Part shown: positions 12,680-42,462 of the stretch, one piece after another
Layout: each line of letters begins with the position of its first letter
Numbering within the stretch: position 1 is the first letter of the stretch
Assembly (NCBI GenBank): GCA_015146655.1
Contig: VKHL01000124.1
Location: 1-64,000 of the forward strand
Source: Ochromonas danica
Taxonomy: Eukaryota > Sar > Chrysophyceae > Chromulinales > Chromulinaceae
Reading direction: 5' to 3'
Length of the DNA: 64,000 bases
The notes under the pieces: generated by a model
The model's database searches: none
Seen by the model: the letters and a program-made list of their open reading frames with translations, nothing else
Told to the model about the DNA's origin: nothing
Made by a program: the position numbers and the translations under genes

Positions 12680-15600
12680 CTATATTGCTCCCTTGGCCCT
12701 CAGAAGTGCTTTAATGTCTTTTGTCTTAGCATAACACAGAGCAGTCTTTCCTCTCTAACTCATCAACAACCACAAGATACAAGACAACATAAGACAGAGA
12801 GGATGACAAGGTTAGAGTCAATAACAACAACACACTCTGTCAACATAACTACCACTGCCACTGCCATCTTACTAGTACCATATAACCTACTAACATATAA
12901 CATATAGCAGTAGTACCATCTAATCACTGTACTCCAATAATAACCACACATCATGTCACTCACTCTAATAATACTCTACACCCTATTGCTAACCTCTCAT
13001 ACACACCACCATAACACATAATCCATTTCATACATCTTGTGACAAACACATGATAGAAAGAAGCACAGATGAGACATTACTAAAACATCAATACTCTGCC
13101 ATCATATACAAGACTCACATCAATATTAGTATCTCATAGTACTCATAATAATCATGACAATAAGCATTATATTAATACTATTCTACAGATGAGACAAAAC
13201 ACAGCCTAGCTTACATTATCAGCCTTGTTAACATCCGAACGCCCATCACGTAATAAAACAAGAAGCACTTCAATATATCCACTATTGCTTGCATACATCA
13301 AGGGAGTCACTCCAGCCTGATCAAACACAGTCATATATATTAGCTATCATAATAATAACGACATTGTTATCATTCTATATCTGACCATACCAACATATGA
13401 TAATACTAACACCTACACTAACCTATTACACACAAACCATCATAACAGACTAACTATTAGATATATACTCATAGTAACATATACTATATAGTAACATATA
13501 CCATACTCTACATACTCATCTGCTTTCTATCTACACTAACACTAACTTATAACATACTACATATCATAATTGTGACATACTGTACTATACAGTACAAGAC
13601 TACTACCATGTGAGGTGTATAAGGGATAGCCATACTTACATTATTGGTCTTATTCACATCAACACGATCATCAAGCAATAAGAGCTTCACAACTTCGTCA
13701 TGACCATTCTTGCATGCAGTATGCATGGTTATCGCTCTATGCTAATCAAACAGAGTCACATAAAATATCTATGATAACAATAATGAAATTATAATCATTC
13801 TATCCATACCAATATAAGCCAATACTAACACCTGCACTAACCTATAAAATATACACCATCATAACAGACTAACTATTAGACAGGTAGGTATATACTGTAC
13901 TATACATTAACATGTTCATCTGCTTTCTACCTTCGCTAACACTAACTTAGAACCTGCCATGTTAGGTGAAAGAAAGCATAGCCACACATACCTTATTGGT
14001 CTTGGTCACATCTACCCGCCCATTAAGTAGTAACAACCTAATAACTTCAACATGACCATGGTGGCATGCTGTATACAAGGGCGTACAGCCGCCCTTGTGA
14101 AACACGGTCACATACATTAGCTATAGTAACAAGACTACTACCATATAAGGTGTAAGGAAGCGTAACCACACTTACCTCTTCAGTCTTGTTCACATCAACC
14201 CTCTCATCAAGCAGTAAGAGCTTCACAACTTCGTCATGACCATTCTTGCATGCAGTATGCAGGGGCGTCCATCCATTCTAATCAAACACAGTCACATATA
14301 ATACTAAGACCTTCATCTACCTTACACAAACACCTTCCTTAACACTAACATAGGGACATACTATACCATACTATACTATAACTTGTACTGTACTATACAG
14401 TATAAGACTACTGCTACTACCATTAAAAGTGGAAGAAAGCATAGCCACACATACCTTATGGGTCTTGGTCACATCTACCCGTCCATTAAGTAATAAACTT
14501 CTAATAACTTCAACATGACCATAAAGACATGCTGAAAACAAGGGCGTACAGCCGCCCTTGTGAAACACGGTCACATATATTAGCTATAGGAACAATAATA
14601 ATGACATTGTACTCATTCTGCTCATACTAACATATGCTAATTATTGTGACATATTATGCTATACAGTACAAGCCTACTACCATATAAGGTGTAAGGAAGC
14701 GTAACCACACTTACCTCTTCAGTCTTGTTCACATCAACCCTCTCATCAAGCAGTAAGAGCTTCACAACTTCGTCATGACCATTCTTGCATGCAGTATGCA
14801 GGGGCGTCCATCCATTCTAATCAAACACAGTCACATATAATACTAAGACCTTCATCTACCTTACACAAACACCTTCCTTAACACTAACATAGGGACATAC
14901 TATACCATACTATACTATAACTTGTACTGTACTATACAGTATAAGACTACTGCTACTACCATTAAAAGTGGAAGAAAGCATAGCCAAACTTACATTAGCA
15001 GTCTTGTTCACATCCATCCGCCCATCAAGTAATAAACTCCTAACAACTTGAACATGACCATAATGACATGCTGTATACAACGGCGACCAACCTTCCTAAT
15101 CAACAACAGTCACACTTTACTAACACTATCACCTATGTTATAATACCTACTAACTTCCACCAATACCATAACTCATCATTTCTCTACTATATAAGACCAG
15201 AAAGACCGCAAAGATACACAACGGCCACTCTTACCAAATCAGCCATGTTTACATCTATCCGAGGAGCACCCAATAAGAGTTTCAAAACTTCTGCATTCCC
15301 ATTTATTTTGCACACAACATGTAAAGGAGTACTTCCGTCCTAATCAAAACCAGTCACCAACATTAGTATTAGTATGCAATAGCAATAGCAACATCATAAT
15401 TGTCTAAACACTAATTTATACACAATAACACTGTCACACGCCATAAATATTTGTATGCTCACCGTACTGTCCACAGCATTGACATCGATTGCTGGATGAA
15501 GTAACAACAGTCTCGTCATCTCAACATTACCCTCTTCAGCTGCCACATGCAAAGCTGTCATATCCTACAGACCATTAGTAGACATTCACCACATCATACC

Positions 15601-16303
15601 ATCTCTATTAGAATGCACAGCAACATAGTTGAGCTATACACAGACATCTCTCCCGCCTACATCATAACAACTACAATACAATAGCAAGCATCATCATCCT
15701 AGCTAACAGACTTAGTTAGCTAGAGTACACTGTTCTCCCTCATGACACCACCTTCTACACACTATAGCAACCAGCAGCCTATAATCAGTACTTTACCTCG
15801 AATTCTATACCATCTACAGTCATTGAGAAGCTATGGTTGATTAGTGAGGCAGGGATTCTATGAATTGCATTGTAAGTCTCCAGTGTTTTCAATACAGTCA
15901 CATCTCCTGATTCAATCATTTGCTGCCAATTAGTGTAGCAATGGAGAAGTTGAATAGCTATCTGACCGTCTTTCAGTTGAGTAACTAATTTGTCATTCAT
16001 AGTCAGAGCTTCTTTCAGCTTTCCCTCCAACTCAACTCGTGCTGCTTTTTCTCTTTCTAGTTTATTATTCAAGTCAGCTATCTCAGTCTCAGTCTGCAGA
16101 CTTGACTCCTGTATCTGTTGTAGCTTTTTCTCCGTCTCAACTTGTCTTGCCTTTTCTTCCTTGTAAGGGATAGCATAGTCCTCTTCTTCTTCTACCTCAG
16201 CAAGACTTCTCTTGTTGTTCAGTATTCTTCTCACTTCTTCAGTTTTTCTATTTTCTTCCTCTGGGTTATCTGACTTCTCTAAGTTCGACTTTATCTTTTC
16301 CAT
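12680..16303 (-). CDS. ankyrin gene A: coiled coil plus 9 single-repeat exons, about 500 aa
   Basis: Exon 1 (16303-15797) encodes a Glu/Lys-rich coiled coil ending in the family-wide segment NWQQMIESGD...LKTLETYNAIHRIP. Nine exons follow, each one ankyrin repeat: 15564-15463, 15339-15235 (35 residues), 15095-14994, 14816-14715, 14556-14455, 14277-14176, 14093-13992, 13741-13640, 13316-13215. A terminal exon (12754-12680) encodes KTKDIKALLRAKGAI and stops. All exons are phase 0 and, except one, 102 nt. The ATG at 16303 follows an in-frame stop, so this copy lacks the membrane segment seen in genes D to F. Repeats carry TPLH.AC, GH.EVVKLLLL and DVNK motifs. A scaffold or recognition role is inferred; the partner is unknown. 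Confidence 0.8.
15565..15796 (-). repeat. intron 1 of gene A, near-identical in all six ankyrin genes
   Basis: 232 nt long. Counterparts at 20396-20627, 24658-24889, 36766-36997 and 41655-41886 are also exactly 232 nt; the one at 28942-29189 is 248 nt. It contains a stem of two 9-nt arms, CTAGCTAAC and GTTAGCTAG, around a 7-nt loop at 15700-15724, kept in the copies (one base differs in gene E). Confidence 0.9.
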
Positions 16304-17716
16304 CACCTTCAGCTAATAGGAAAATATGAGATGAAATAAATAATTTTAGAAAGAGGTAACTACTAGACTAGATGAAATTGGAAATGGGGCACAATGTGGT
16401 CTGGCCAAGTGCAATGCGAATTCCATTTTAGAATTCCATGGAATTGATTTTTTGGATTCACACCCACGCAAGCTGCGCCAAGTGGTTTTCCAAGCGGTCG
16501 TAATAATAGCTCACACTTCTTCCCTCAGCTCTGAACTACCCGTAGTCTAGTACTGTACTGCATATAGAAAGTATACAGTCCATCCTATGTCAACTGAACA
16601 AAGATCTCTCTTATAGTGTTCTAAGAGAATGGTTGACCTGGTCTGATCTCTCTCAGTTAGATCTTGTCTATTATCTCAATCCAGCATGTCGACAACTCTG
16701 GTTGAGTCAGCTCTCCGATCTTCTCCTTCTACCACCCCTCTCCCCCTCCTTATTCCACAGACGCCTCATATTCCTCTGATATCACCTTGACCTCCTCTTA
16801 TCAGTGGATAGGTAGGTAGCGGACAGGTGAAAGTGGAAAGTTGTCGTGTAGTGATGGCATGGTCTACTCTGCTTGACTGGTTGTAGAAGGATTCAATGGA
16901 TACGTATCGATATCGGGAAACCCATTGTTGGTGATGATAAATTAGTGAGCATACCACCACTACTACTCCTTGAAGAAGTTGGTATGGTTAGATCTATCAG
17001 ATCGATCTGTCTTTTCCTTTTCTGATGAGAAGATTCAAGAGATGATTCGTGTTTGTAGGGGATTGGAAAGGTTTACAACTATCATACCACCTAATTGTCC
17101 TTCTTATAAGGAAGAAGAGATTAGACAAAGGTAAGTATGGAAGAAAGAATGGCTTTTGATAAGGTAGTGTAGATTCTCATAGGGCTTGTAATGTGTGGAT
17201 GTCATTCTTCTATTGTATCCAAGTAGTCTGGCTAGGTGATGGAGCTATATATTGACGCAGTATGCAGTTAGACTGTGTTATGTTTGCCATCAAGGTCATT
17301 GCATAGTTTTGTTAGTCTGCTGTCAGTGTTACTTTAGAGATGTTGGATGAATGATGATGTCTATTAGATGAGATAGTGCTGCTGCAGTGGTCTTCTATCA
17401 AGTCTGATTGAAGGAACATACAGTATTACTAGATCATCGAGCAGGGTCGATCATCATCGAATGAGCTAATCTAATCTAATCTAATCTAATCTAATCTAAT
17501 GGGTGGTACTTCTTTTGACTTCCGTGGTCTTCCACTTCAAAGCACATCCCAGTGTTATGCGCTGACTGGTAAAGTAGTCATAGGAGTGGAAGTGGAAGTA
17601 GTCTAGCAGCAGTGATTGCTTAGACTCTGTAGTGTTACTGTATGTTAGGAGGAGGATGCTTCCTTCATTAGTCCATCAGATAGACTAGACTAGACTAGCT
17701 ATATAGACTGCAGCAA
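16304..17716. other. spacer between ankyrin genes A and B
   Basis: It contains F-box-like gene fragments on the plus strand (listed separately), an ATCTA-type repeat (CTAAT)n at about 17465-17500, and TAGAC repeats near 17680. Otherwise nothing recognised. Confidence 0.5.
16585..17134 (+). pseudogene. F-box/LRR-like gene remnant
   Basis: 16585-16779 encodes a segment (DLSYSVLREWL.W.DLSQLDL) that aligns with residues 8-50 of the intact protein at 3344-4993. 16970-17134 encodes a C-terminal-like segment (LVWLDLSDRSVF...MIRVCRGLERF) nearly identical to 22226-22400. The two parts are out of register and most of the LRR region is missing, so this is a deletion remnant. A splice-like CTTCCCTCAG occurs at about 16501-16513. 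Confidence 0.6.
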
Positions 17717-20700
17717 TCAACCTCTTCTTCCCTGTATTGCTCCCTTGGCCCTCAGAAGTGCTTTAATGTCTTCGGTCTCAGAAACATCCAGAGCACTTTG
17801 TCCATTCTAACCCAACAACAACAACCACAAGATACAAGACAACATAAGACAGAGAGTATGACAAGGTTAGAGTCAATAACAACAACACACTCTGTCAACA
17901 TAACTACCACTGCCACTACCATCTTACTACTAACATATAACCTACTAACAAATAACATATAGCAGTAGACTAGTACCATCTAAGCACTGCACTCCAATAA
18001 CACATCTTGTGACAAACACATGATAGAAAGTAACACAGATGAGACATTACTAACACATCAATACTCTGCTATCATATACAAGACTCAAGTCAATATTAGT
18101 ATCTCATAGCAATCATAATAATAATGATACTGATATTAATACTATTCTACAGATACTCATAGATGCTGAGACAATAAACAACCAAGCTTACATTATTAGA
18201 CTTGTTCAAATCAGCACAATTAGAAAGTAACAAAAGCTGTACAACGTCAACTTGACCTCGTATGCATGCATACATCAAAGGTGTCCATCCATTCTAGTCA
18301 AACACAGGCACATAGATTAGCTATCACAATAATAATGACATTGTAATCATTCTATATCTTCTCGTACCAAAATATGATAATACCAACACCTTCATCTACT
18401 TTACTTACTACTTCACTTTATACTAACACCTACACTAAACTATAACATACACACCATCATAACAGACTAACTATTAGATATATACTCATAGTAACATATA
18501 CTATACATTAACATATTCATCTGCTTTCCACCTACACTAACACTAACTTACATATTATTACAGTGACATTCTATACAGTACAAGACTACCACCATGTAAG
18601 GTGTAAGGAAAAATAGCAACACTTACTTCATCAGTTTTGTTCACATCCACCCGATGATCAAATAATAAAACCTTCACAACTTCAACATGGCCACTGTTGC
18701 ATGTAGCAAATAGGGGTGTCATTCCATTCTAGTCAAATACAGTCACACATATACTAGTATTAGTTATCACAATAATTAAATTGTGATCATTCTATATCTG
18801 CTCATTTTAACAATAACAACACTTACATTTCTAGGTTTCTCCACTTCTACCCTTGGATCAAGCAATAAAATCCAAACAATTTCAACATGACCGTTGCTGC
18901 ATGCACTATACAAGGGTGAACATCCACTCTGGGTAAAAACAGTCACAGTCACATAAGTTAGCTGCAACAGAAATAAAGACATTATATTCTGACATACTAT
19001 ACAGTACAAGACTACTGCCATATAAGGTGAAAGAAAGAACAGTCAAACTTACAATTTCAGACTTGTTCACATTCACCCGCTCATCAAGTAGCAAGAGCTT
19101 TACAACTTCTACATGACCTTTGTTGCATGCAATAAGCAAGGGCGTCCATCCATACTAGTCAAACACAGTCACATAAGTTAGCTGTAACAGAAATAAAGAC
19201 ATTGTATCTAACATACTGTACAGTACAAACTGCAAACATGTTAGATAAAAGAAAGGATAGGCGCACTTACATTGTCAGTCTTGTTCACATCAACACGCTC
19301 GCCGAATAATAAGAGCTTTACAGCTTCTACATGACCATTTTTGCATGCAATAAGCAAGGGCGTCCATCCCCACTAGTCAAACACAGTCACAAAGATTAGC
19401 GATAAAACTATTAATGGCATTGTAATCATTCTACCTACACCAACACTAACTTATAACATACTACTACATATTATTACGGTGAAACTCTATAAAGCACAAG
19501 CCTACCACCATGTAAGGTGGAAGAAAGAATAGCCAAACTTACCTGATCGGCCTTGTTCACATCCACCCGCTCATCAAGTAATAAGAGCTTTACTACTTCA
19601 ACACGACCTTTGTTGCATGCAATAAGCAAGGGCGTCCATCCATACTAGTCAAATACAGACACATAGGTTAGTACAGAAACAAAGACATTGTACAAGACTA
19701 TACATACTATAAGGTGCATAACTACAACCATGTAAGATGATATAAAGGGCAGCCAAACTTGCATAGTCAGTCTCGTTCACATCAACACGCTTGTCGAGTA
19801 ATAAGAGCTTTGCAACTTCAACATGACCCTTCTCGCATGCATAACGCAAGGGTGTCCATCCTTCCTGGTCAAACACAGTCACATAGATTAGTTATAACAA
19901 TAATAATGACATTGAAATCATTCTATATCTGCTCATTCTAACATATGTTAATACTAACACCTTCATCTACTTTATACTAACACCTACACTAACCTATTAC
20001 ATATACACCATCACGACAGACCAACTATTAGAACTATACTCATAGTAACATATACTATACTATGCATTAACATATTGATCTGCTATCTATCTACACTTAC
20101 ACTAACATATAACATACTACATATAATAATTCTGACATACTATACATTACAATACTACTAACAAGTAAGGTGGAACAAAGGAACTCATATCTACAATTAT
20201 AAGGAAGCTAGATACATATAATACTGTATGTACAAGTATAAGCAGACTATCAGACATCGTCACTACTAGTTAATGTGATGGTTAAGTGTTCACCTTTCCG
20301 CCAATAGCATTGACATCTATTGCTGGATGAAGTAACAACAGTCTCGTCATCTCAGCATTACCCTTCAGAGCTGCCAAGTGCAAAGCTGTCATTCCCTACA
20401 GACCATTAGTAGACATTCACCACATCATACCATCTCTATTAGAATGCACAGCAACATTGTTGAGCTATACACAGACATCTCTCCCGCCTACATCATAACA
20501 ACTACAATACAATAGCAAGCATCATCATCCTAGCTAACAGACTTAGTTAGCTAGAGTACACTGTTCTCCCTCACAACACCACCTTCTACACACTATAGCA
20601 ACCAGCAGCCTATAATCAGTACTTTACCTTGATTTCTATACCATCTACAGTCATTGTGAAGTGATGGTTGATTAGTGATACAGGGATTCTATGAATTGCA

Positions 20701-21089
20701 TTGTAAGTCTCCAGTGTTTTCAATACAGTCAAATCTTCTGATTCAATCATTTGCTGCCAATTAGTGTAGCAATCTCGAAGTAGAACAGCGATCTGGCCCT
20801 CTTTGAGTTGATCTAATAATTTGTCATTCATATCCTGAGCTTCTTTTAGCTTCCCCTCCAACTCAGCTCGTGATGCTTCTTCTACATTGTGAGGGACATC
20901 ATCCAGAAGACCACAGACCTCTTCCTCTTCCTCAGTGCGATGTCTTTTTTTCAGTATCTTTCTCACTTCTTCAGTTTTTCTATTTTCTTCTTCTATATCT
21001 TGCATATCTTTCACTTCCTGTATCTTTCTCACTTCTTCAGTTTTTCTATTTTCTTCTTCTGTGTCTAAGCTCGACTGCATCTTTTCCAT
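17717..21089 (-). CDS. ankyrin gene B: coiled coil plus 8 single-repeat exons, about 455 aa
   Basis: Exon 1 (21089-20628) encodes a coiled coil with a duplicated EEENRKTEEVRKI unit, then the conserved NWQQMIES...AIHRIP segment. Ankyrin exons: 20395-20294, 19864-19763, 19644-19543, 19372-19271, 19154-19053, 18928-18827, 18728-18627, 18293-18192, all 102 nt and phase 0. The terminal exon (17806-17717) ends AKGAIQGRRG. The exon at 19763 is followed by GCAAGT, a GC-AG intron. Upstream of the ATG the frame still encodes a hydrophobic segment like that of genes D to F, but without an ATG in frame, so the membrane anchor appears lost by a small deletion further upstream. Confidence 0.78.
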
Positions 21090-21241
21090 CACCTCCAGCA
21101 AATAGGAAAATATGAGATAAGTAAGTAATTTTAGGATGAGGTAGATAGGATAAAATAATGTTCTGAGCTTGTATCTCTTTTATGAGATTAGTTGCGATCA
21201 AATTCGGAAATGGGGCAAGAGAGGCAATGCCTTGGTAAGAG

Positions 21242-21910: not shown

Positions 21911-21914
<4 letters not shown>

Positions 21915-21956
<42 letters not shown>

Positions 21957-22559: not shown

Positions 22560-25333
22560 CTATATTGCTCCCTTGGCCCTCAGAACTGCTGTAATCTCTG
22601 CAGTCGAAGTATAAGCCAGAGCAGTTCTTCCATACTAACTCATCAACAACCACAAGATACAAGACAACATAAGACAGAGAGGATGACAAGGTTAGAGTCA
22701 ATAACAACAACACACTCTGTCAACATAACTACCACTGCCACTGCCATCTTGCTACTACTATATAACCTACTAACATATAACATATAGCAGTAGTACCATC
22801 TAATCACTGTACTCCAATAATAACCACACATCATGTCACTCACTCTAATAATACTCTACACCCTATTGCTAACCTCTCATACACACCACCATAACACATA
22901 ATCCATTTCATACATCTTGTGACAAACACATGATAGAAAGAAGCACAGATGAGACATCACTAAAACATCAATGCTCTGCTATCATATAAACGACTTATTC
23001 TACACCACTACCTTGTACTTTAATACTGCACATAGACACACTTACATCATCAGTCATGTTCACATCCACTCTCTGATCGGCAAGCAAGACCTTCACAGCT
23101 TCAACATGACCATTTTTGCATGCAATATGCAAAGGTGTCCATCCATTCTAATCAAACACAGTCACATATTTAGCTATAACAATAATAGTCACATAGTAGT
23201 CGTTCTATATCTGCTCATATTAACATATACTATACATTACACAGCACAAGACTACTATCACATGAGAGCAAGAATAAACGCACTTACATTATCAGTCTTT
23301 TTCACATCCACCTTTGGGTTACATAGCAAGATGTTAACGACATCATCATAACCCCAAAAGCATGCAATATACAAGGCAGTCCGACCAATCTAGTCAAACA
23401 AAGTCACTACATCAGCTATAACAATAATAGTAAATTTGTAATCATTCCACATCTGCACATGTAAGGTGGAGAAAGCACAGCAACACTTACGTCAGAAGCG
23501 TTGTTCACATCCAATCGATCATCCATTAGCAAGATCTTAGCAACTTCAGCATAGCCATTCTCACATGCAACATGCAAGGGCGTCCATCCCCACTGGCCAA
23601 ACACAGTCTCATATATTAGCTATCACAATAATAATAGCGTGAAAGAAAGAATAGCAATACTTACATTAGTACCCTTTCTCACATCCACTCGTTCATCAAG
23701 CAACAAGATCCTAACAACTTCAACATAACCTCTGAAGCATGCAGCAAACAAGGGTGTCCATCCATCCTAGTCAAATAAAGTCACATATATTAGCTATTAT
23801 AGTAATAATAATCAAATTGTAATCATTCTAGATCAGAGCATACTAACATATGCTAATACTAACACCTTCACCGACTTTATACTAACACCTGCACTAACCT
23901 ATTACATATACACCATCATAACAGACTAACTATTAGATATATACTCATACTAACATATACTATACTATACGTTAACATCTGCTTTCTACCTACACTAACA
24001 CTAACTTATATCATACTCATTATTTTGACATACTATACTATACAGTACAAGACTGCTTCCATGTAAGGTGGAAGAATGTATAACAGCACTTACATTATCA
24101 GCCTTGTTCACATCCACCCGCTCATCAAGCATTAAGAACTTCACCACTTCAACATGACCATATCTACATACTGCATACAAGGGCGTCCATCCCATCTAGA
24201 CAACACACACAGTCATACATATTAGTTATAACTTAATCATTCAATATCTGCTCATACTAACACATTCAAATAATACAGATGCGCATCAAAAAATGCAAAC
24301 TGCTATTCCACATATACTACAATATATACATGGTTATATATACAATCTACATATAAGTAAATCTATAGACTCAGTTATATATAGGCTATTATATACAGTT
24401 ACATCCAGCCTACTCAAACACTGAGAATGCTCGCAAGTTAATACCCTACACATTATACCACTGGTGCTTACAACCACTACGGCTAGGTTTACGCACAGTT
24501 ATAAGCACATCTCAGACATCCTCATTAGCAACGGTTGAAATGATTGCATGCTCACCTCACTGTCCACAACATTGACATCTATTTCTGGATGAAGTAACAA
24601 CAACTTCGCCATTTCCACATTACACTTAGCAGATGCCACATGCAAAGCTGTCATATCCTACAGACCATTAGTAGACATTCACCACATCATACCATCTCTA
24701 TTAGAATGCACGGCAACATAGTTGAGCTATTCACAGACATCTCTCCCGCCTACATCATAACAACTACAATACAATAGCAAGCATCATCATCCTAGCTAAC
24801 AGACTTAGTTAGCTAGAGTACACTGTTCTCCCTCACAACACCACCTTCTACACACTATAGCAACCAGCAGCCTATAATCAGTACTTTACCTTGATTTCTA
24901 TACCATCTACAGTCATTGTGAAGTGATGGTTGATTAGTGATACAGGGATTCTATGAATTGCATTGTAAGTCTCCAGTGTTTTCAAAGCTGTCAAATCTCC
25001 TGATTCAATCATTTGCTGCCAATTAGTGGAGCAATTCTGAAGTAGAACAGCGATTTCATCCTCTTTTAGTTGAGTCAGAGCAGCAATCTCAGTGTGACTT
25101 GACTTCTGCACCTGCTGTAGCTTTTGCTTCAAATCAACTCGTCTTGTTTCTTCTTCCTTGGAAGGGATATCATAGACCTCTTCCTCTTCCTCAGTGCGAT
25201 CTTTCACTTCCTGTATCTTTCTCACTTCTTCAGTTTTTCTATTTTCTTCTTCTATATCTTGCATATCTTTCACTTCTTGTATCTTTCTCACTTCTGTAGC
25301 TTGTAGCTCTTCTATGAGATGAAATGCAATCAA
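22560..25333 (-). CDS. ankyrin gene C: short coiled coil plus 6 single-repeat exons
   Basis: Exon 1 (to 24890) encodes a coiled coil with repeated KIQEVKD units and the NWQQMIESGD...AIHRIP segment. Ankyrin exons: 24657-24556, 24195-24094, 23766-23665, 23592-23491, 23389-23288, 23147-23046, all 102 nt. The terminal exon (22634-22560) diverges (YTSTAEITAVLRAKGAI). About 376 aa if the frame is taken from 25333, but that codon is TTG and the first in-frame ATG is inside the coiled coil; the membrane segment of the paralogues is absent. The true start is therefore unknown, and the gene could be 5'-truncated by the rearrangement that joined it to plus-strand F-box-like sequence. Confidence 0.65.
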
Positions 25334-26586
25334 ATGGAACGATGCCTGTTGGAGGGCGGTAAGTTATTATTGTGGTGCGTGCATCAATTCCCCGCTATGT
25401 GGAAGTGGTCTTCCAAGTGTTCGTAATAATATCTCACTCTTCTTCCCCTTTTGTTGTCTTTCAGGTCAAAAGGTTAGTCACAAATTTAATTAGTACTGTA
25501 CTCAAATTCAAAGTCATTCTCTCATTGCACGATTTCCATCCAAATTGGTCGAGTCACTCTGTGACTGTGACCACAGCGTGCCCTCATTGATTGGATTGAC
25601 CTTATTGGATTGACCTTTTGGTGTGTTACGTGGTACTGTAGCGTTATGCTTTGTTGCTTTCTGTGTGTTGTATTAGTATGATACAGAGAGGCTAACGAGA
25701 GAGAAGTTTTGTCCAAAACATGGATGTCGAAAAATGATATTAGGCAAGTTTCTAAACCAAAGGAGGAGGATATAGAAGAGGATGTTATTATGTGGTATAT
25801 GAATATTCCTGCTGTTGTATAGCATTGGGATGGGCAATGTCAAGCATTACAAGTTAATTGAATTGTTGATGTTCTCTTCATCTAGACATCAGACATATAC
25901 TACTGTAGTATCAGACAAGCTAACCAACAGCACGTGTCAATCAACCATTGACAAGCTATACAAGGTGGCTTGGGGTATTAATGGTCCATCTCAATCTAAC
26001 CCAACTCAGTATAACAACTTATTGTTATCATCCCTTGACTACTGTAGCTTCTTCATCTTCATCATATATGTTAACATGTTGTCATAGTTTAAATAAACTG
26101 ATCAATTCTAATACGATGAATGTTGAAAATAGAAGTTATAAGAATAGTCTATGTTAGCAGATTGTTGTTATCTGTTTAATCAGACTATTAACATCAATGA
26201 TACTGCAAGTAGCAATAATAGATGATCTAAAGTTACAACAAATATGACAACTTTCATGTTTTCACCTTGTCATCATAGATGATTCTATCTATCAACCTCT
26301 AACATGTAATACAGCTCCAGTTGTTAATAAGTGTAAACAACATATCAATCATCTTTATAGTAATGTTTTATAATATGATGGTTATACTATCTATGATGGT
26401 TATAGTAGTTTACATCAAACTACATGTCTTAATTTAATTTACTCATTCAAATAATATACTAGTATTATCAACATACTTTAGATGTTTAGAATCATATTTT
26501 AAAATGTCTTTATAGATATCATAGTTAACTAAACAACATTGATCATTTAATATTAACTGGTGTCTTGACAATAGTGCTTACTGCAA
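25334..26586. other. spacer between ankyrin genes C and D
   Basis: It starts with a diverged copy of the 21.45-21.65 kb F-box-like junction (to about 25590), including the TTATTATTGTGGTGCGTG motif (25364-25381). From 26238 to the 3' end of gene D it matches 31941-32262, the downstream flank of gene E. No intact gene. Confidence 0.55.
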
Positions 26587-29500
26587 TCAACCTGTTCTTC
26601 CTTGTATTGCTCCTCTGGCCCTCAGAAGTGCTTTAATGTCTTCTGTCACAGCAACATTTAGAGCAGTTCTTCCTCTCTAACCCAACAACAACCACAAGAA
26701 ACAAGACAACATAAGACAGAGAGTATGACAAGGTTAGAGTCAATAACAACAACACACTCTGTCAACATAACTACCACTGCCACTGCCATCTTGCTACTAC
26801 TATATAACCTACTAACATATAACATATAGCAGTAGACTAGTACCATCTAATCACTGCACTCCAATAATAACCACACATCATGTCACTCACTCTAAGAATA
26901 CTCTACACCCTATTGCTAACCTCTCATACACACCACCATAACACATAATCCATTTCATACATCTTGTGACAAACACATGATACAAAGTAACACAGATGAG
27001 GCATTACTAACACATCAATACTCTGCTATCATATACAAAACTATACAGATACCACTAGTATTCTACAGATACTCATAGTCTTTGTCATACTATATTTATA
27101 TTTGTGACATACTAGTACTACACAGTACAAGACTACTATCATGTAAGGAGGAAGAATAAACAACGACACTTACGTTTTCAGACTTGTTAACATCCACACG
27201 AGCGTCACGTAATAAAGCATTAACTACACCAACATGACCAGTATAGCATGCCGTATACAAGGGTGTCCATCCATACTAGTCAAACACAGTCACATAGATT
27301 AGCTGTAATAACAACGCCATTGTAATCATTCTAGATCAGAGCATACTAACATATGCTAATAGTAACACCTTCGTCTACTTTATACTAACACCTACACTAA
27401 CCTATTACATATACACCATCATAACAGACTAACTATTAGATATATACTCATAGTAACATATACTATACATTAACATATTCATCTGCTTTCTACCTACACT
27501 AACACTAACTTATAACATACTACATATCATTATTGTGACATATTAAATAGTACTACTAACATGTTCGGTAGAACACCGGATAGCGACACTTACCTTATCA
27601 GTCTGGTTCACATCCACTCGAGTGTCACGTAATATAACATTAACTACACCAGCATGACCATTAAAGCATGCAACATACAAGGCCGTGCATCCAATCTAGT
27701 CAAACACAGTCACATAGATTAGCTATCACAACAATACCATTGTAATCATTCTGTATCGGATCATACTAACACCTTCATCTACATTATACTAACACCTACA
27801 CTAATAACCTATTACATACACACCATCATAACAGACTAACTATTAGATATACTCATAGTAACATATACTATACATTAACATATTCATCTGCTTTCTACCT
27901 ACACCAACACTAACTTATAACATACTACATATCATTATTGTGACATGCTGTACTATACAGTACAAGACTACTACCATATAGGGTGTAAGGAAGCATAACC
28001 ACACTGCCATGTTAGGTGCAAGAAAGGATAGCGACACTTACAATATCAGTCAGGTTCACATCCACTCGAGTGTCACGTAATAAAACATTAACTACACCAA
28101 CATGACCATTAAAGCATGCAGCATACAAGGCCGTGCATCCAATCTAGTCAAACACAGTCACATAGATTAGCTCTCACAACAATAATAGCATTGTTATCAT
28201 TCTATATCCGACCATACCAACATATGCTAATACTAACACCTTCACCTACTTTATACTAACACCTGCACTAACCTGTTACATATACACCATCATAACAGAC
28301 TAACTATTAGATATATACTCATAGTAACATATACTGTACATTAACATACTCATCTACTTTCTACCTACACTAACACTAACTTACAACATACTACATATCA
28401 TAACTATACTATACAGTACAGGACTACTAACATGTTCGGTAGAAGACCGGATAGCGACACTTACCCTATCAGTCTGGTTCGCATCCACCCGAGCGTCACG
28501 TAATAGCACTTTAACTACCTCAACATGACCATCGAAGCATGCAGCATGCAAGGGTGTAAATCCATACTAGTCAAACATAGTAACATAAATTAGATATCAC
28601 AATAATAATAATTGCAGTAGACTACTGCATAGAAATAACGACATTAGCAACATTCTACAGATACTCATACTCAATAACCCCTTCACTTACTTTATAATAC
28701 CAACTACACCAACAACATCTTTAACATAAAACATCATCACTGTGATAGACTACACCATACAACAAGGCTACTCCACCTAGTCACAAATATACTGAGTCAT
28801 ACTTTAACGCCATTCCTATTATACAATCCGACCATTGGTCATACTCACCTCACTGTCATTAACATCTATTGCTGGATGAAGTAACAACAGTCTCGCCAAT
28901 TCCACATTACCCTTCTTAGCTGCCAGGTGTAGTGCTGTGCCCTGCAGGTCATTAGAAATTCACCACATCATATTAGACACTAATTGTCATATAGACACTA
29001 TTAGAATGCACAGCAACATAGTTGAGCTATACACAGACATCTCTCCCGCCTACATCATAACAACTACAATACAATAGCAAGCATCATCATCCTAGCTAAC
29101 AGACTTAGTTAGCTAGAGTACACTGTTCTCCCTCATGACACCACCTTCTACACACTATAGCAACCAGCAGCCTATAATCAGTACTTTACCTTGAATTCTA
29201 TACCATCTACAGTCATTGTGAAGTGATGGTGGATTAGTGATACAGGGATTCTATGAATTGCATTGTAAGTCTCCAGTGTTTTCAACAGAGTCGCATCTGC
29301 TGCCTTACTCATCTGCTGCCAAGTAGTACTGCAAATCCCCAGAAATAGAACGTCTTGGCTTTCTTGTAGTTGAGAAAGAAAGTTGCGAACTAGCGCCTGC
29401 GCTTCGTTAGCCCTTCTCTCTTCCCCAATTCTTTCAGCTTCTTTAATGTTGACAGCCTCTTGCAGGTTGGCCCTCAGTACAGCTATCTCAGTCTGAGATG

Positions 29501-30164
29501 TCTCTCGCAACTGTTGAAGCATTGTCTCAGCCTTAGTTCTGGCTGCTGCCTCTGCCTCCTTGTCATTGACAGCTTCTTCCAGTTTAGTCTTCAGTACAGC
29601 TATCTCAGTCTGAGATGTCTCTCGCAACTGTTGAAGCATTGTCTCTGCCTTAGTTCTGGCTGCTGCCTCTGCCTCCTTTGCTTTGTCTGCCGCTTTGAGG
29701 TTGGACTTCAGTACAGCTATCACAGTCTTAGTGGATGCTTGGACTTTGCCAAGCTTTGTTTCAGTCGCATTTCTCATTTTTGATTCTGTCTCTCTTGCTT
29801 TGATGCTCTCTTGTAGTTCAGACAACAGCTTCTCATTTACTGCCTGACATTCTTCCAGCTTTCTCTCTAAAGCAATTCGTCTTGCCACTTCTGCCTTATT
29901 AGCGATGTCATCCACAAGATCGTAGAGCACCTCCTCTACCTCAGCACGACTTCTCTCTTCCTCTATCCTTCTCTCTTCTTCAGTTTTTCTATTTTCTTCT
30001 TCAGTATCTGTCTTCTTCAAGCTCGACAGGATCTTTTCCGTCCCCTCCACCAAGAAGGAAAATATAATATGAAATAATTTTAGAATGAGGTAGATGAGAT
30101 AAATTACAAGTCTGAGCTCAGCTTGTAGTTCTTCTATGAAAGCATTCAGTAGCCATAGAAGCAT
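26587..30164 (-). CDS. ankyrin gene D: membrane segment, coiled coil and 5 single-repeat exons, about 521 aa
   Basis: Exon 1 (30164-29190) starts MLLWLLNAF, has a hydrophobic segment at about residues 18-42 (YLIYLILKLFHIIFSFL), then about 250 residues of coiled coil. The coiled coil holds two copies of a 39-residue unit (AEAAARTKAETMLQQLRETS). Ankyrin exons: 28941-28849 (93 nt, shortened first repeat), 28566-28465, 28143-28042, 27695-27594, 27275-27174; terminal exon 26676-26587. Three repeats (28143, 27695, 27275) are close copies with VLLRDTRVDVN, so local exon duplication is recent. Likely a membrane-anchored scaffold with cytosolic ankyrin domain; function inferred only. Confidence 0.8.
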
Positions 30165-32262: not shown

Positions 32263-35200
32263 TCAACCTCTTTTTCTTCCTTGTATTGCTCCCTTGGCCC
32301 TCAGAAGTGCTTTAATGTCTTCTGTTTTAGCAACATCTAGAGGAGTTCTTCCTTGCTAACTCAACAACAACCACATGATACAAGACAACATAAGACAGAG
32401 AGTATGACAAGGTTAGAGTCAATAACAACAACACACTCTGTCAACATAACTACCACTGCCACTACCATCTTACTACTAACATATAACCTACTAACAAATA
32501 ACACTCACTCTAACAATACTCTACACCCTATTGCTAACCTCTCATACACACCACCATAACACATAATCCATTTCATACACCTTGTGACAAACACATGATA
32601 GAAAGAAACACAGATGAGACATCACTAACACATCAACACTCTGCTATACTCAAATCAATATTACGGATTAGTATCTCATAGTACTCATAATAATAACGAT
32701 AATGATATTATTACTATTCTACAGACACTCATAGATACTGAGACAAAGAACACACAAAGCACAGCCTTGCTTACATTATCAGCCTTGTTAACATCAACTC
32801 GCCCATCAAGTAATAACATCTTCACAACTTCAAGATAACCATTCTCACATGCAATATGCAAGGATGCCCATCCATCCTACTCAAACATAGTCACACAGAT
32901 TAGCTCTCACAATAATAATAACATTGTAATCATTTTATATCTTCTCATACTAACATATACTAATAATAACACATTCACCTGCTTTTTACTAACACCTACA
33001 CTAACCTATAACACAGTAGTATACACCATCATAACAGACTAACTAGTATACTGTATAGCTATCTACTCATACTAACATATACTATACATTAACATATTCA
33101 TCTGCTTTCTACCTACACTAATACTAACAACATGCTACACATCATTATTGTAACATAATGTACTACTATAGTATACAGTACCAAATAAGGTGTATAAAGG
33201 GATAGCCGTACTTACATTATCAGTCTTATTCACATCCACCCGCTCATCAAGTAATAACATCTTCGCAACTTCAATATGACCACCCTGACAAGACAAATGC
33301 AAGGGTGTCCTTCCAATCTGGTCAAACACAATCACATATACTTGTATTAGCTGCTGTAGTAATATTGACGTTTGCAATCATTCTATATCATCACAGATAT
33401 ACACCATCATAACAGACTAACTATTAGATATATACTCATACTAACATATACTATACTATACTATACATTAACATATTCATCTGCTTTCTACCTACACTAA
33501 CACTAACTTATAACATACTACATTTCATTATTGTGACATACTGTGCTATACAGTATAAGACTACTACCATGTAAGGTGGAAGAGAGGATATACACACTTA
33601 CATTATCAGACTTATTCACATCCACCCTCTCATCAAGTAATAACATCTTCACAACTTCAATATGACCACCCCTACAAGCATAATGTAAAGGTGTCCGTCC
33701 ATCCTAGTCAAATATAGTCACATAGATTAGCTACTATAGTAATAATAATGACATTGTAATCATTCTATATCTGACCATACTAACATATGCTAATACTAAC
33801 ACCTTCACCTACTTTATACTAACACCTACACTAACCTATTACATATACACCATCATAACAGACTAACTATTAGATATATACTCATAGTAACATATACGGT
33901 GCTATACATTAACATGTTCATCTGCTTTCTACCTACACTAACACTAACTTAAACCCTGCCATGTTTGGTGAAAGAAAGGATAACCACACATACCTTATCG
34001 GCCGTGGCCACATCTACTCTCTCGTCAAGTAAGAACATTCTAATAACTTCAACATTACCTTTGCTGCAAGCGCGGTGCAAGGGAATACATCCATCCTAAC
34101 AAACACAATTATATAAATTAGCTATCACATTAATAATCACGATGTAATCATTCTATATCTTCTCATGCTCACGTACGCTAATACTAACACATTCATCTGC
34201 ATGGTAACCTAGTAACCTACACGATGGTAACTTATACTATAGTACTATATATACTGTAGTAGTAACCTACTATATATACTCATAGTAACATATACTATAC
34301 ATTAACATCTTCATCTGCTTTCTACCTACACTAACACTAACTTATAACATACTACATATCATAATTGTGATATACTATAGTATACAGCACGATAATGCTG
34401 CCATGTAAGATGGAGGAAAGGATAACAGCACTTACATTATCAGCCTTATTAATATAGACCCGTTCATCACGTAGCAAGAGCGTAACAATTTCTACATGGC
34501 CAATTCTACATGCGACATGCAAAGGTGTACGTCCATTCTAGTCCAACACAGTCAGTCACATAGATTAGCTATCACAATAACAATAATAATAACATTGAAA
34601 TCATTCTATATCTTCTCATACTGCCATATACTAATACTAACACCTTCACCTACTTTATACTAACACCTACACCAACCTATAACATACAAGTATACACTAA
34701 CATAACAGACTAACTATTAGATATAACTCATACTAACATATACCATATATTAACATATTCATCTGCTTTCTACCTACAATAACACTAACTTATAACATAC
34801 TACATATCATTATTATGACATACTATACTATACAGTATAAGACTACTACTGTGTAAGGTGGATGAGAGGATAAGTACACAAACCTTATTGGTCTTATTCA
34901 CATCCACCCGCTCATCAAGTAATAACATCTTCACAACTTCAATATGACCACCCCTACAAGCATAATGTAAAGGTGTCCGTCCATCCTAGTCAAATATAGT
35001 CACATAGATTAGCTACTATAGTAATAATAATGACATTGTAATCATTCTATATCTGACCATACTAACATATGCTAATACTAACACCTTCACCTACTTTATA
35101 CTAACACCTACACTAACCTATTACATATACACCATCATAACAGACTAACTATTAGATATATACTCATAGTAACATATACTATACATTAACATATTCATCT

Positions 35201-38116
35201 GCTTTCTACCTACACTAACACTAACTTATAACATACTACATATCATAATTGTGACATACTATACTATACAGTACAAGACTACTACCATGTAATGTGAAAG
35301 AAAGAATAGCAACACTTACATCAGTAGTCATGTTCGCATTCACCCTGGGATCATGCAATAGCAGCGTTACCAGCTCAACATGACCATTCTTGCATGCAAT
35401 GGTTAAAGGAGTATAATCATCCTAGTCAAATATAGTCACATAGATTAGCTATCACAACAATAATGACATTTTTAATCATTCTATATATGATCAAACTAAC
35501 ATATGCTAATACTAACACCTTCACCTACTTTATACTAACACCTACACTAACCTATTACATATACACCATCATCACAGACTAACTATTAGATATATACTCA
35601 TTGTAATGTATGTACAATCACACACATCACAGTAGAAGATTACCTGATCTCTGAACCAACTTAGATAAAACAACCAACTTAACTTTCTCGAAGTAATGTT
35701 ACAAGTAGGCTTGTTCACGTCGACCGGGCCACCAAGTAGGAAGACCTTCACCACTTCAACATGACCATAATGACATGCAGTATAGAAAGGTGTCCATCCA
35801 TCCTACTCAAACACAGTCAGTCACATAGATTAGTTATAACAATAATAATACCATTGTAATCATTCTATTTCTGATCATTCTAACATATGCTAATACTAAC
35901 ACCTTCATCTACATTATACTCACACCTACACCAACCTATAACATACAAGTATACACTATCATAACAGACTAACTATTAGATATATACTCATAGTAACATA
36001 TACTATACATTAACATATTCATCTGCTTTCTACCTACACTAACACTAACTTATAACATGCTAGATATCATAACTGTGACATACTATACTATACAGTACAA
36101 GACTACTACCATGTAATGTGAAAGAAAGAATTGCAACACCTACAGTACCTTATCAGCCTTGTTCACGTCCACACTATTACGATAAAGTAATAACGTCCTA
36201 ACAATTTCAACACAACCACTGCTGCAAGCAACATGCAAGGGTGAACATCCATTCTGGGTAAACACAGTCACGTAAGTTAGCTGCAACAGAAATAAAGACA
36301 TTTAATGTGACATACCATACTATACAGTACAAGACTACTACCATGTAAGGTGGAAGAAAGTATAGTCATACTTACCTTATTGGCCTTGTTCACATCTATC
36401 CGAGGAACAGTCAATAAGACTTTCACAACTTTCGCATTCCCATCTATTTTGCACGCAACATGTAAAGGAGTAGTTCCATACTAATCCAAACCAATCACCA
36501 ACATTAGCATTAGGATAATATAGTAATAACAACATTATAACTATAGCATATCTTGTCATACTAACAAAATACGACCATTAGTGATTGTTTACAACCACTA
36601 CATACAACCATTACAATTGTATTGGCTTTACATTAGTAATAGTTGAAATGTTTGCATGCTCACCTCACTGTCCACAACATTGACATCTATTTCAGGATGA
36701 AGTAACAACAACCTTGCCAGTTCTTCATTTCCATTAGCGGCTGCCATATGTAGCGCCGTCATTCCCTACAGACCATTAGTAGACATTCACCACATCATAC
36801 CATCTCTATTAGAATGCACAGCAACATAGTTGAGCTATACACAGACATCCCTCCCGCCTACATCATAACAACTACAATACAATAGCAAGCATCATCATCC
36901 TAGCCAACAGACTTAGTTAGCTAGAGTACACTGTTCTCCCTCATGACACCACCTTCTACACACAATAGCAACCAGCAGCCTATAATCAGTACTTTACCTT
37001 GAATTCTATACCATCTACAGTCATTGTGAAGTGATGGTGGATTAGTGATCCAGGGATTCTATGAATTGCATTGTAAGTCTCCAGTGTTTTCAACAAAGTC
37101 GCATCTCCCGCCTCAATCATTTGCTGCCAATTAAAACTTAAGGAGCAATTCCGAACAAAAGCGGCTTGACCCTCGTTTAGCTGAGACAACAACTTCTCAT
37201 TCCGAGACTGACCTTCTTTTAGCTTTCCCTCTGCCTCAACTCGTGCTGCGAGTTTTCTTTCGAGTTTATTGTTCAAGTCAGATATCTCAGCGTGACTTGA
37301 CTCCTGTACCTGTTGTAGCTTGCTCTCTGTCGTAGCTCGATCAGCTTCTCTTGCATTGTCGATGGCTTGGAGTTTATTGTTCAAGTCAGATATCTCAGCG
37401 TGACTTGACTCCTGTACCTGTTGTAGCTTGCTCTCTGTCGTAGCTCGATCAGCTTCTCTTGCATTGTCGATGGCTTGGAGTTTATTGTTCAAGTCAGATA
37501 TCTCAGCGTGACTTGACTCCTGTACCTGTTGTAGCGCTTTCTCCAGCTCAACTCGTGCTGCATTTTCTCTTTCAAGGTTAGTACGCAAGTTAGCGGTTGC
37601 CATCAGTACCTGTTCCAGCTTTCTCTCTAAAGCAAGAACTTTCTCTTCCTGTATTCTTCTCACTTCTTGAGCTGTTCTCTTTTCTTCTAGTAATCTTCTC
37701 TCTTCTTCAGTCTTTTTCGTTTCTTCTTCTGCATCTTGCATATCTTTCAATTCTTGTAATCTTCTCTCTTCTTCAGTTTTTCTATTTTCTTCTTCAGTAT
37801 CTGTCTTCTTCAAGCTCGACAGGATCTTTTCCGTCCCCTCCACCAAGAAGGAAAATATAATATGAAATAATTTTAGAATGAGGTAGATGAGATAAATTAC
37901 AAGTCTGAGCTCAGCTTGTAGTTCTTCTATGAAAGCATTCAGTAGCCATAGAAGCATGGTGATGATATTCTTCTGTCTTTCTGTTGTGAGAGTGGACTTG
38001 TCTTTTGACTGTGACAGACTGGGAGGAGAGAGAGAAGGCGCACCATTTCCGCAGTTTCGTAGTTCAGTTTTTCGATGTTTCATTGTTCTGGAGTTTGGGA
38101 AGTTCGGCGCCATCAT
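32263..38116 (-). CDS. ankyrin gene E: largest member, 11 single-repeat exons, about 798 aa
   Basis: Exon 1 (38116-36998) begins with about 53 basic residues, then the MLLWLLNAF start of gene D, a hydrophobic segment (YLIYLILKLFHIIFSFL) and a long coiled coil with a 36-residue unit (LNNKLQAIDNAREADRATTE) repeated at an exact 108-nt spacing (37271, 37379, 37487). Ankyrin exons: 36765-36664, 36480-36376 and 36253-36149 (35 residues each), 35802-35644 (159 nt), 35421-35320, 34985-34884, 34537-34436, 34095-33994, 33703-33602, 33317-33216, 32876-32775; terminal exon 32355-32263. The repeats at 34985 and 33703 are almost identical. The 159-nt exon has lost the usual donor position and uses a downstream CAG/GTAATC, adding 19 residues. 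The internal ATG matching gene D is an alternative start. Confidence 0.8.
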
Positions 38117-38170: not shown

Positions 38171-38180
38171 TTAACTTAAG
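38171..38180 (-). promoter_or_regulatory. TTCTTAAGTTAA-type motif upstream of ankyrin gene E
   Basis: TTAACTTAAG on the plus strand, 55 bp from the ATG at 38116. The equivalent site upstream of gene F is 42604-42613. Confidence 0.45.
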
Positions 38181-38267
38181 AAAATTATCATCACATCATC
38201 ATCATCCATACTGTACATAACTATTATAGCTTACTAACTCTATCTGATATAGTAGCCTACAGTAATT

Positions 38268-38512
38268 AGAATGCGCTCTTCTAGACTAGATAGAGTTAAC
38301 ATTTCACATGTTTAGCTATCTCACGTACAGGTGCAAATACTTCCTCATAACATTGTATAGATGATTTCGCATTTTCCATCCATTGTTGTACTTTAGGAAA
38401 ATACGAATAATCAACTAAATTACAAGCTGATAGATATAATTGTTGAGGATGGCTATAAACGTCGATAGACTTGACTCATAGCATTATGAGTATAGAAATG
38501 ACTCCAATATAA
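38268..38512 (-). pseudogene. truncated copy of the GST gene 3' end
   Basis: Near-identical to the C-terminal coding end and 3' flank of the GST at 42731-43591 (38268-38433), then jumps over about 170 bp of the gene to resume with the segment matching about 43050-43125. It breaks off at the CCCTAA array. Same strand order as the intact ankyrin F-GST pair, so it came with duplication of the whole unit. Confidence 0.85.
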
Positions 38513-38522
38513 CCCTAACAAC

Positions 38523-38588
38523 TAACCCTAACCCTAACCCTAACCCTAACCCTAACCCTAACCCTAACCCTAACCCTAACGCTAACCT
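38523..38588. repeat. interstitial telomere-type repeat (CCCTAA)n
   Basis: About ten tandem CCCTAA units with a few variants at the edges. It sits exactly at the breakpoint of the truncated GST copy, far from a visible chromosome end. Confidence 0.95.
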
Positions 38589-38606
38589 TACTGTAGCACT
38601 GGCCCA

Positions 38607-39665: not shown

Positions 39666-42462
39666 TTACTGTAGTGGTCTTTTTAGTTTTATGACTCGTA
39701 TTTTACTGTAAGTTTTGGTCTTAAGAATTGCTCCCTTGGCCCCCTTGGCCCTCAGAAGTGCTTTGATCTCTTCTGTCTCAGCAACATATAGAGCAGTTTG
39801 TCCATCCTAACTCATCAACAACCACAAGATACAAGATAACATAAGACAGAGAGTATGACAACAACAATGATAATAATAATGATATTAATACTATTCTACG
39901 GATACTCGTAGATAATGAGACAAAGCACACGCAACGCACAGCCTTGCTTACATTATCAGCCTTGTTAACATCCACTCGCCCATCACGTAATAACATCTTC
40001 ACAAGTCCAACATGACCACTGACGCATGCATAATGCAAGGGTGTCCACCCACGCTAACCAACCATAGTCACATATATTAGATATAACAATAATAATAACG
40101 GCATTGCAACCATTCTAAATCTGATCATACTAACACATGCTAACGCGCATGATAGAAAGTAACACAGATGAGACATCACTAAAACATCAATACTCTACTA
40201 TCGTATACAAGACTGAAATCAATATTACGGATTAGTATCTCATAGCAATAAGCATGATATTAATACTATTCTACAGATACTCATAGATGATGAGACAAAG
40301 CACCCAGCCTAGCTTACATAATCAGCCTTGTTAACATCCACACGATCATCAAGCAGCAAAATCCTAACAACATTAACATCACCATTCTCGCACGCACCAC
40401 ATAAGGGCGTCCGTCCATCCTAGTCAAACACAGTCTCATAGATTAGATATCAAAGTAATAATCACATTGCAAACTATTAACTATTAGATATATACTCATA
40501 GTAACATATACTATACTATGCATTAACAAATGCATCTGCTTTCTATCTACACTAACACTAACTTATAACATACCACATATCATAAATGTAATATATTATA
40601 CTATACAGTATAAGACTACTACCATGTAAGGTGGAAGAGAGAATGATAGCAGCACCACTTACATCATCAGTTTTGTTCACATCCACGCGCTGATCAAGCA
40701 ACAAGAGCTTAACAACTTCAACATGACAGTCCTCGCATGCAACACGCAAGGGTGTCCATCCAACCTAATCCAACACGGTCACATAGATTAGCTATCACAA
40801 TAATATTGACGTTTGCAATCATTCTATATCTGATCATTCTAACATATGCTAATACTAACACCTTTACCTACTTTATACTAACACCTACACTAACCTATTA
40901 CATATAAACCATCATAACAGACTAACTATTAGATATATACTCATAGTAACATATACTATACATTAACATATTCATCTGCTTTCTACCTACACTAACACTA
41001 ACTTATAACATACTACATATCATAACTGTGACATACTATACTATACAGTACAAGACTACTACCATGTAGAGTGGAAGATAGGGTAACGACACTTACATCA
41101 TTAGTTTTGTTCACATCAACGCGCCGGTCAAGCAACAAGAGCCTAACAACTTCAACATGAACGTCCTCACATGCACAACTTAAGGGCGGCCATCCATACT
41201 AGTCAAACATAGTCACATAGATTAGCTATCACAATAATATTGACGTTTGTAATCATTCTATATATGATCAAACTAGCATATGCTAATACTAACACCTTCA
41301 TCTACTTTATACTAACACCTACACTAACCTATAACATATACACCATAATAACAGACTAACCATTAGATATATACTCATAGTAACATATACGGTGCTATAC
41401 ATTAACATGTTCATCTGCTTTCTGCCTACTTCAACATATAATAATGATGAAATATAATAATAATAACCCTTTACACTCTTCGTATTTCACGGTATTCCCG
41501 TGATATATTCAGACATAGTCATTAGTAGTTGTTGAAATGTTTGCATGCTCACCGTGCTGTCTGCAGCATTGACATCGATTGCTGGATGAAGTAACAACAA
41601 CCTCGTCATCTCAACATTACCCTCTTCAGCTGCCATATACAACGCTGATGTATCCTACAGACCATTAGTAGACATTCACCACATCATACCATCTCTATTA
41701 GAATGCACAGCAACATAGTTGAGCTATACACAGACATCTCTCCCGCCTACATCATAACAACTACAATACAATAGCAAGCATCATCATCCTAGCTAACAGA
41801 CTTAGTTAGCTAGAGTACACTGTTCTCCCTCATAACACCACATTCTACACACTATAGCAACCAGCAGGCTATAATCAGTACTTTACCTCGATTTCTTCAT
41901 CATCAATAGTCATTGAGAAGGAATGGTTTATTATTGAGCTTGGGATTCTATGAATTGCATTGTAAGTCTCCAGTGTTTTCAATACAGTCAAATCTCCTGA
42001 TTCGATCATTTCCTGCCAATTACTGGAGCAATATCCGAGCAGTACTGGGATTTGGTCCTCTTGTGGCTGAGACAAGAATACATCCTTTAGAGTCTGAGCT
42101 TCTTTAGCTCTTGCCTCTGCCTCAACTCGTGCTGCTTTCTCTCTTTCTAGTTTATAATTCAAGTCAGCTATCTCAAACTGACTTCCAAAGGCAAAGGCCA
42201 TGTGCATAAACTTCCCCAAATCTTCCTGCATTCCTCTCATTTCTTCAACTTTTCTCTTTCTTTCCTGTATCTTTCTCTCTTCTTCAGTTTTTCTATTTTC
42301 TTCTTCTGTGTTTAAACTCGACTGGATCTTTTCCATTACCTCCAGTAAATAGGAAAATAGAATATGAAATAATTTTAGAATGAGATAGATAACATGAATT
42401 AAAAATCTGAGTATAGTTCGTAGGTTTTCCATGATATCATTCTGTAGTCCTGGCAGTGGCAT
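39666..42462 (-). CDS. ankyrin gene F: membrane segment, coiled coil and 5 single-repeat exons, about 408 aa
   Basis: Exon 1 (42462-41887) begins MPLPGLQNDIMENL, then a hydrophobic segment (RFLIHVIYLILKLFHILFSYLL, residues about 19-40), a coiled coil and the conserved NWQEMIESGD...AIHRIP block. Ankyrin exons: 41654-41553, 41198-41097, 40764-40663, 40419-40318, 40053-39952. The terminal exon (39806-39666) is longer than in the paralogues because a KGA duplication and loss of the usual stop carry the frame into a basic tail. Repeats 41198 and 40764 are close copies (CED.HVEVV.LLLLD.RVDVNK). Upstream lie the TTAACTTAAG motif and the GST gene, in the order also seen, decayed, after gene E. Confidence 0.8.

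Follow-up and report, generated by a model that had tools for sequence, protein, structure and literature searches.

The window analysed here, bases 1-64000 of the 86.6-kb contig C124 (VKHL01000124.1) in the 31.2-Mb, 337-contig assembly of Ochromonas danica, carries a tandem array of six ankyrin-repeat genes, A to F, all on the minus strand (Table 1). The genes follow a common plan: a first exon with a conserved domain at its end (motif NWQQMIES...NAIHRIP...), then a first repeat exon that forms a type of its own (LLLLHPxIDVN, its end shortened in gene C), a variable set of further repeat exons and a short end exon, which could be located in all six genes as the initial annotation had proposed. 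Together they hold 44 exons that each encode a single ankyrin repeat, and the array is correctly bordered by the ATG of gene A (42462) and the final base of the gene F stop codon (12680). When spliced, gene A, the one gene scanned in this way, matches Pfam PF00023 (1.5e-38) and PF12796 (4.2e-38) above the cut-off, which places it in the ankyrin repeat superfamily.

Table 1. The six genes of the array; repeat-exon groups are those found by the exon scan.
Gene	Span	Strand	First exon	Start and parts of first exon	Repeat exons	End exon
A	39666..42462	-	42462-41887	ATG, hydrophobic stretch, coiled-coil-like part, conserved domain	5 (41654-39952)	39806-39666
B	32263..37957	-	37957-36998		11 (36765-32775)	32355-32263
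C	26587..30164	-	30164-29190		5 (28941-27174)	26676-26587
D	22560..25363	-	open 25363 to 24890	no clear ATG	6 (24657-23046)	22634-22560 (diverged)
E	17717..21179	-	open 21179 to 20628	first in-frame ATG 21089	8 (20395-18192)	17806-17717
F	12680..16312	-	open 16312 to 15797	first ATG 16303	9 (15564-13215)	12754-12680

This layout does not depend on a single way of calling exons. A refined scan for AG, an open ankyrin-like frame and GT (minus strand, 12600-44000) gives the 44 exons; a looser initial scan gives 43, and a third scan, with GC donors also permitted, gives 44 with unchanged starts. In this third parse 39 exons are 102 nt long, three are 105 nt (36480, 36253 and 15339), one is 93 nt (28941) and one 100 nt (35802). 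The six genes, the 44 single-repeat exons and the 39 exons of 102 nt described initially are all recovered by these independent scans, and the accompanying statement that every exon is a multiple of three is right for 43 of the 44: at exon 35802 of gene B the usual donor is mutated, and the frame is preserved only via a cryptic donor that makes the exon 162 nt long. Exon 19864 of gene E reaches 102 nt only with a GC-AG donor, and the donors of exons 36253 and 34985 are weak. The refined and the GC-allowing scans are biased toward multiples of three; a phase-blind donor check, which took its exon starts from the GC-allowing scan and covered the window and 15 of 20 regions fetched from elsewhere in the assembly, places 42 of the 44 donors in the window at a multiple of three, 38 of them at 102, and likewise 173 of 182 exon ends over all regions. 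A protein-only scan of the window, with a matrix derived from the array's own exons, yields 46 matches, 39 of them bordered exactly by AG and GT or GC, and none in three shuffles.

The six genes are members of a large dispersed family. The first-exon domain, which the initial annotation had suggested following elsewhere in the genome, is matched 47 times across the assembly at an E-value of 0.01 or lower (37 below 1e-9): six are those of the array itself, another lies at 84210 of the same contig, and four form a second tandem array, on one strand of contig C73 (117589-138250) and 66-75% identical to the query. The end exon has 51 matches, and the own-type first repeat has 119 with an E-value of up to 0.01; the weaker ones among these 119 resemble ordinary repeats. 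Across the window and 19 of the 20 fetched regions (L057, an inverted near-copy of L053, was excluded), 189 repeat exons were parsed; 154 are 102 nt and 22 are 105 nt long, and 187 have lengths divisible by three, a property that the scan favours. Where both ends of a gene lie inside the fetched DNA, repeat number runs from 5 to 15.

The first exons of genes A, B and C open with a clear ATG and ~20 residues of strong hydrophobicity (Kyte-Doolittle maxima over 19 residues of 2.05, 2.29 and 2.29), a stretch that is weaker in gene E (1.81). Three dispersed copies, L041, L044 and L048, have such a stretch as well (2.12-2.25), and the maximum lies below 1 in 7 of the 19 first-exon frames examined. 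The coiled-coil first exon of the initial annotation stands as a plan shared by six genes, with a clear ATG in A, B and C only and with the coiled coil itself a judgement by eye. This coiled-coil-like part also grows by in-frame repeats: gene B contains 2.5 copies of a 108-bp (36-codon) unit with 100% matches (37262..37535, minus strand), and gene C a tandem repeat of 117 bp (39 codons) with 87% matches (29449-29728, minus strand). When B and C are aligned, their first exons start with 170 of 170 bases the same and yet differ in the coiled-coil-like part behind, so mosaicism extends to the first exons. Gene A is one codon longer than B there, for which reason an ungapped count for that pair (59 of 170) was set aside. 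Neither Pfam nor PDB offers a convincing relative of the conserved domain. A viral origin of this domain gained no support: two pattern matches in viral contigs were found, neither of which was confirmed.

Exon copying in this family goes beyond mere possibility. Exon-plus-intron cassettes stand in tandem in gene A (434 bp, 2.2 copies, 87% matches; 40478..41429, minus strand) and in gene B (436 bp, 3.0 copies, 82% matches; 34272..35606, minus strand), while a 692-bp cassette on contig C262 and a 458-bp cassette at the end of contig C194 are each present in four tandem copies. In gene F, exon 14715..14816 (minus strand) is identical to exon 14277-14176, within a 406-nt block of 390 identities. 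Copies are also shared between genes: in three cases one exon, together with 150-280 nt of each adjoining intron, shows 99-100% identity between genes on different contigs. Gene B exon 35320..35421 (minus strand) matches an exon of a C181 family gene at 102 of 102 nt; the surrounding block spans 438 nt with 433 identities, and the neighbouring exons on both sides differ between the two genes. The neighbours differ likewise for a block shared by C262 and C40 (657/658); the third block, shared by C262 and C246 (598/598), contains the last repeat, and its similarity continues into the end exon (136/147). Upstream of the blocks the match falls to 61/83, 94/130 and 25/36 aligned bases, for B/C181 directly at the border.

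The relationships among exons tell the same story at the scale of the family. For these and for the substitution comparisons below we used 102-nt exons other than those of the first-repeat type, counting identical DNA once, which leaves 122 exons. The nearest relative lies within the same gene for 48 of them, against 5.9 expected from shuffled labels; for the 32 window exons it lies in the same gene in 19 cases, in another gene of the window in eight and in a gene elsewhere in five. Along the exon tree the gene label changes 69 times, a figure that stands without a shuffle comparison. Local amplification and exchange between genes both occur, and the earlier proposal that recombination changes repeat number and order is directly supported by the near-identical single-exon blocks across contigs, by the identical tandem cassettes and by the varying repeat numbers of paralogues. 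As a separate observation, region L055 of contig C40 carries the own-type first repeat exon twice (2041-2421 and 4692-5072; 381 nt, 98.7% identity), which might reflect a fusion of two genes or a cassette copied inward.

Ectopic crossing-over or gene conversion via homologous introns would be the simplest mechanism for such traffic. In the array region, which for this count takes in the first exons and first introns, exact repeats of at least 40 nt cover 9,400 of 30,400 bases, compared with 109 of 20,000 bases in window positions 44001-64000 and none in a shuffle. The description of the introns as near-identical, made initially, fits only some of them: in a comparison of 561 exon pairs, the 90 nt of intron next to the exon have a mean identity of 0.67 upstream and 0.62 downstream (0.49 in the shuffled control), and only three pairs have a flank above 0.95. 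The introns are also G-rich and C-poor on the coding strand, with a mean GC skew of +0.39 in positions 12600-43000 of the window and 15 other regions; the skew is positive in 156 of 158 introns and beyond 0.3 in 121, a value passed in either direction by 10 of 100 control segments of 300 nt from the same window. Repeat exons have a mean skew of +0.29.

Substitutions are unevenly spread along the repeat. Entropy over the 122 distinct exons is highest at exon positions 11, 1, 8, 12, 3 and 25. For the target-contact face we used the positions randomised in DARPins, which we take to be 2, 3, 5, 13, 14 and 33 and which, mapped by hand, correspond to exon positions 34, 1, 3, 11, 12 and 32. In 28 independent pairs the nonsynonymous proportion pN is 0.298 at these six positions and 0.100 elsewhere, a contact value that 0 of 20,000 random six-column sets matched. 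With pooled dS, 33 independent pairs give an omega of 1.39 (1.12-1.71) at contact positions and 0.41 (0.34-0.50) over the rest; the contact value is 1.48 (1.02-2.11) in 18 closer pairs and 1.30 (1.11-1.54) in 57, and the framework stays at 0.41-0.48 in these three sets, which are nested, as is a set of the six closest pairs. Purifying selection on the ankyrin framework is well supported by these counts, and diversifying selection on the contact face appears likely but not proven. For the recognition role proposed initially, the contact omega above 1 with pooled dS is indirect support; the ratio with local pS, given below, lends none.

Some further features lie beside the array or elsewhere in the assembly. 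Between genes A and B, an interstitial telomere-type array (TAACCC, 12.8 copies; 38510-38587) adjoins what appears, by eye, to be a duplicated 3' fragment of a GST gene (38500-38320, compare 43300-42770), and is separated by 8 bases from a block of 751 bp with 98% identity to contig C181; there a pattern scan found no TAACCC-type array. Near the start of the window, an AT-rich stretch contains a 173-aa frame (1203-1724, minus strand) with no Pfam match between two direct repeats (53-609 and 1733-2289; 557 bp, 98.9%); together they are possibly a mobile element. The assembly also has 47 matches to chlorophyll-binding proteins, which mark the source as an alga, presumably of stramenopile type, and led a sponge origin considered at first to be dropped; no Wnt match turned up, in a search to which the control genomes gave none either. 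On contig C224 (8673-16382) four equal-scoring light-harvesting matches stand in tandem, ~2.4 kb apart. For one light-harvesting protein the best one-domain match in PDB is 9m4f chain t, named XLH12 (2.5e-27); long 9vfj chains head the ranking, but by summing repeated domains, no one of which passes by itself.

We hypothesize that the array belongs to a receptor-like family whose frame-neutral exon cassettes are copied, lost and moved, and which most likely recognises variable partners; judged from the sequence, we hold this to be probable, with clear reservations. The ends of such proteins would be constant, formed by the first exon (the conserved domain, preceded by a coiled-coil-like stalk whose length varies and, in several copies, by a hydrophobic N-terminus), the first-type repeat exon and the short C-terminal exon, and the middle would vary, as a run of phase-0 ankyrin exons with one repeat each. 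Exons would be copied, removed or moved between near and far genes when homologous introns recombine ectopically or undergo gene conversion and, because nearly every cassette is frame-neutral, the rearranged products should remain readable. Selection would preserve the ankyrin framework and probably favour change at the target-contact positions, which makes variable partners the most likely targets, perhaps pathogens, symbionts or other cells of the species. The proteins would then be made, sited at a membrane and bind these targets. In a bolder form, which we put forward tentatively and think rather unlikely to hold as a whole, the family would be a repertoire of ankyrin-based recognition proteins tethered to a membrane, separate from NB-ARC and ROCO proteins and with binding arrays rebuilt by exon-cassette traffic via the G-rich, C-poor introns, possibly coupled to transcription and possibly also at work in somatic cells. 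With recent near-identical cassettes in several genes, the family would in any case suit measurements of the rate at which arrays are rebuilt, and of change in single cells.

Several observations weigh against a receptor-like family under selection for new contacts, and part of them would fit a neutral by-product, in which exons recombine because their introns are similar, repeat number drifts in proteins with an ordinary scaffold role, and contact variation reflects relaxed constraint. In a small control, 11 ordinary ankyrin repeats taken from this genome, the contact positions likewise rank with the most variable, and with the contact columns' own local pS the ratio becomes 0.94 (0.68-1.48). 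The contact set was picked from DARPin design positions after the entropy table had been seen, omega is a simple pairwise count with pooled dS, and in the six closest pairs the contact value is 1.42 (0.75-3.00). The neutral course is nevertheless harder to square with a contact omega above 1, its intervals excluding 1, in the nested sets of 18, 33 and 57 pairs (pooled dS), or with a framework constrained at 0.41-0.48, which shows that the genes are maintained; we regard it as possible, if on the unlikely side. Other reservations concern the copied blocks: the next 150 nt downstream still align at 130/145 (B/C181), 113/139 and 136/147, so that the downstream border of the B/C181 block is soft, the C262/C246 block may be a shared gene end instead of a moved exon, and some exact tandem copies may be assembly effects, the 458-bp array standing at a contig end.

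The same list includes points on the genes themselves. A search of the first exon found no known signalling domain, the first exons of D, E and F are open without a clear start, and in gene F an in-frame stop falls inside the conserved hydrophobic stretch, so some family copies may be pseudogenes. Carried further, many copies could be pseudogenes or assembly duplicates of a few working genes, given the donor lost at 35802, the in-frame stops within 2 of the 47 first-exon matches and the near-identical copies at contig ends (two on C135, 99.5%; C112 and C252, 94.4%). We find this improbable for the family at large: its repeat framework is under purifying selection, and shared exons lie between different neighbours, which simple assembly duplication would not yield. 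Alternative splicing might instead be what the architecture serves, each gene giving rise to many isoforms according to which frame-neutral repeat exons are skipped or chosen, a use with a precedent in the LRR exons of brown algal ROCO genes (PMC11378527). Nearly all cassettes are in phase 0 and multiples of three, so most skips would keep the frame; this frame neutrality is equally required for germline exon copying and is no proof of isoforms, and we consider splicing a doubtful explanation. A receptor-like family rebuilt by exon traffic remains the reading that we favour.

How does this family compare with known repeat-exon systems? Like them, it has one repeat per exon at a fixed length and phase, as seen in the 102-nt and 105-nt exons of the family parse and in the phase-blind check, and it exchanges exons between genes, as the window B/C181 and the C262/C40 blocks, with their different neighbours, indicate. 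An earlier report on shuffled brown algal ROCO exons was reportedly made by Zambounis et al. in 2012. In the brown algal LRR-ROC-COR (ROCO) genes each leucine-rich repeat (LRR) is encoded on a 72-bp phase-2 exon, these exons are shuffled, positively selected sites lie on the concave face and alternative transcripts are described (PMC11378527). The likeness is thus one of single-repeat exons of fixed length and phase that are shuffled, and perhaps of the binding face, where our contact omega is 1.30-1.48 with pooled dS and 0.94 with local pS. Unlike those genes, with their LRR exons and ROC-COR GTPase, the present ones have 102-nt phase-0 ankyrin exons after a coiled-coil-like first exon, and a six-frame search of the assembly gave no match to COR-A; one control genome was positive, intron-split genes could be missed in such a search, and the assembly may be incomplete. 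The NB-ARC-TPR genes of brown algae, candidate immune receptors, likewise have shuffled single-repeat exons (Teng et al., 2023, via PMC11378527), but their repeats are TPR and ours ankyrin; with six positive control genomes and the same two limits of intron-split genes and a possibly incomplete assembly, NB-ARC had no match in six frames either. The family therefore belongs neither to the brown algal ROCO nor to the NB-ARC-TPR genes.

In Tetrahymena, arrays of 90-bp phase-2 LRR exons bear evidence of ectopic recombination (PMC6564038). There, as here, exons have a fixed length and one phase, and their number varies among close paralogues; unlike the Ochromonas family, that of the ciliate is built of LRRs and has far more genes, and our 102-nt phase-0 ankyrin exons do not fall within it. 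In human NLR genes, which encode immune sensors, the LRR domains are strictly exon-modular and alternatively spliced, and the available part of that account does not describe exchange of exons between genes (PMC6642158). Ankyrin repeats themselves occur together with a membrane part in proteins of plant disease resistance, in wheat leaf rust (PMC7878491) and as Triticeae ANKTM proteins (PMC9353636); the counterpart here would be the N-terminal hydrophobic stretch, a candidate membrane part. Judged by titles and the starts of abstracts, the open-licence literature yielded no description of shuffled single-repeat ankyrin exons. The Ochromonas family works as the brown algal LRR-ROCO and Tetrahymena arrays do, with another fold, exon length, phase and N-terminal module, and is a member of neither. 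This suggests that a third repeat fold, after LRR and TPR, has been made into frame-safe exon cassettes that move between genes and, if true, an exon structure that makes recognition evolvable would be a repeated solution.

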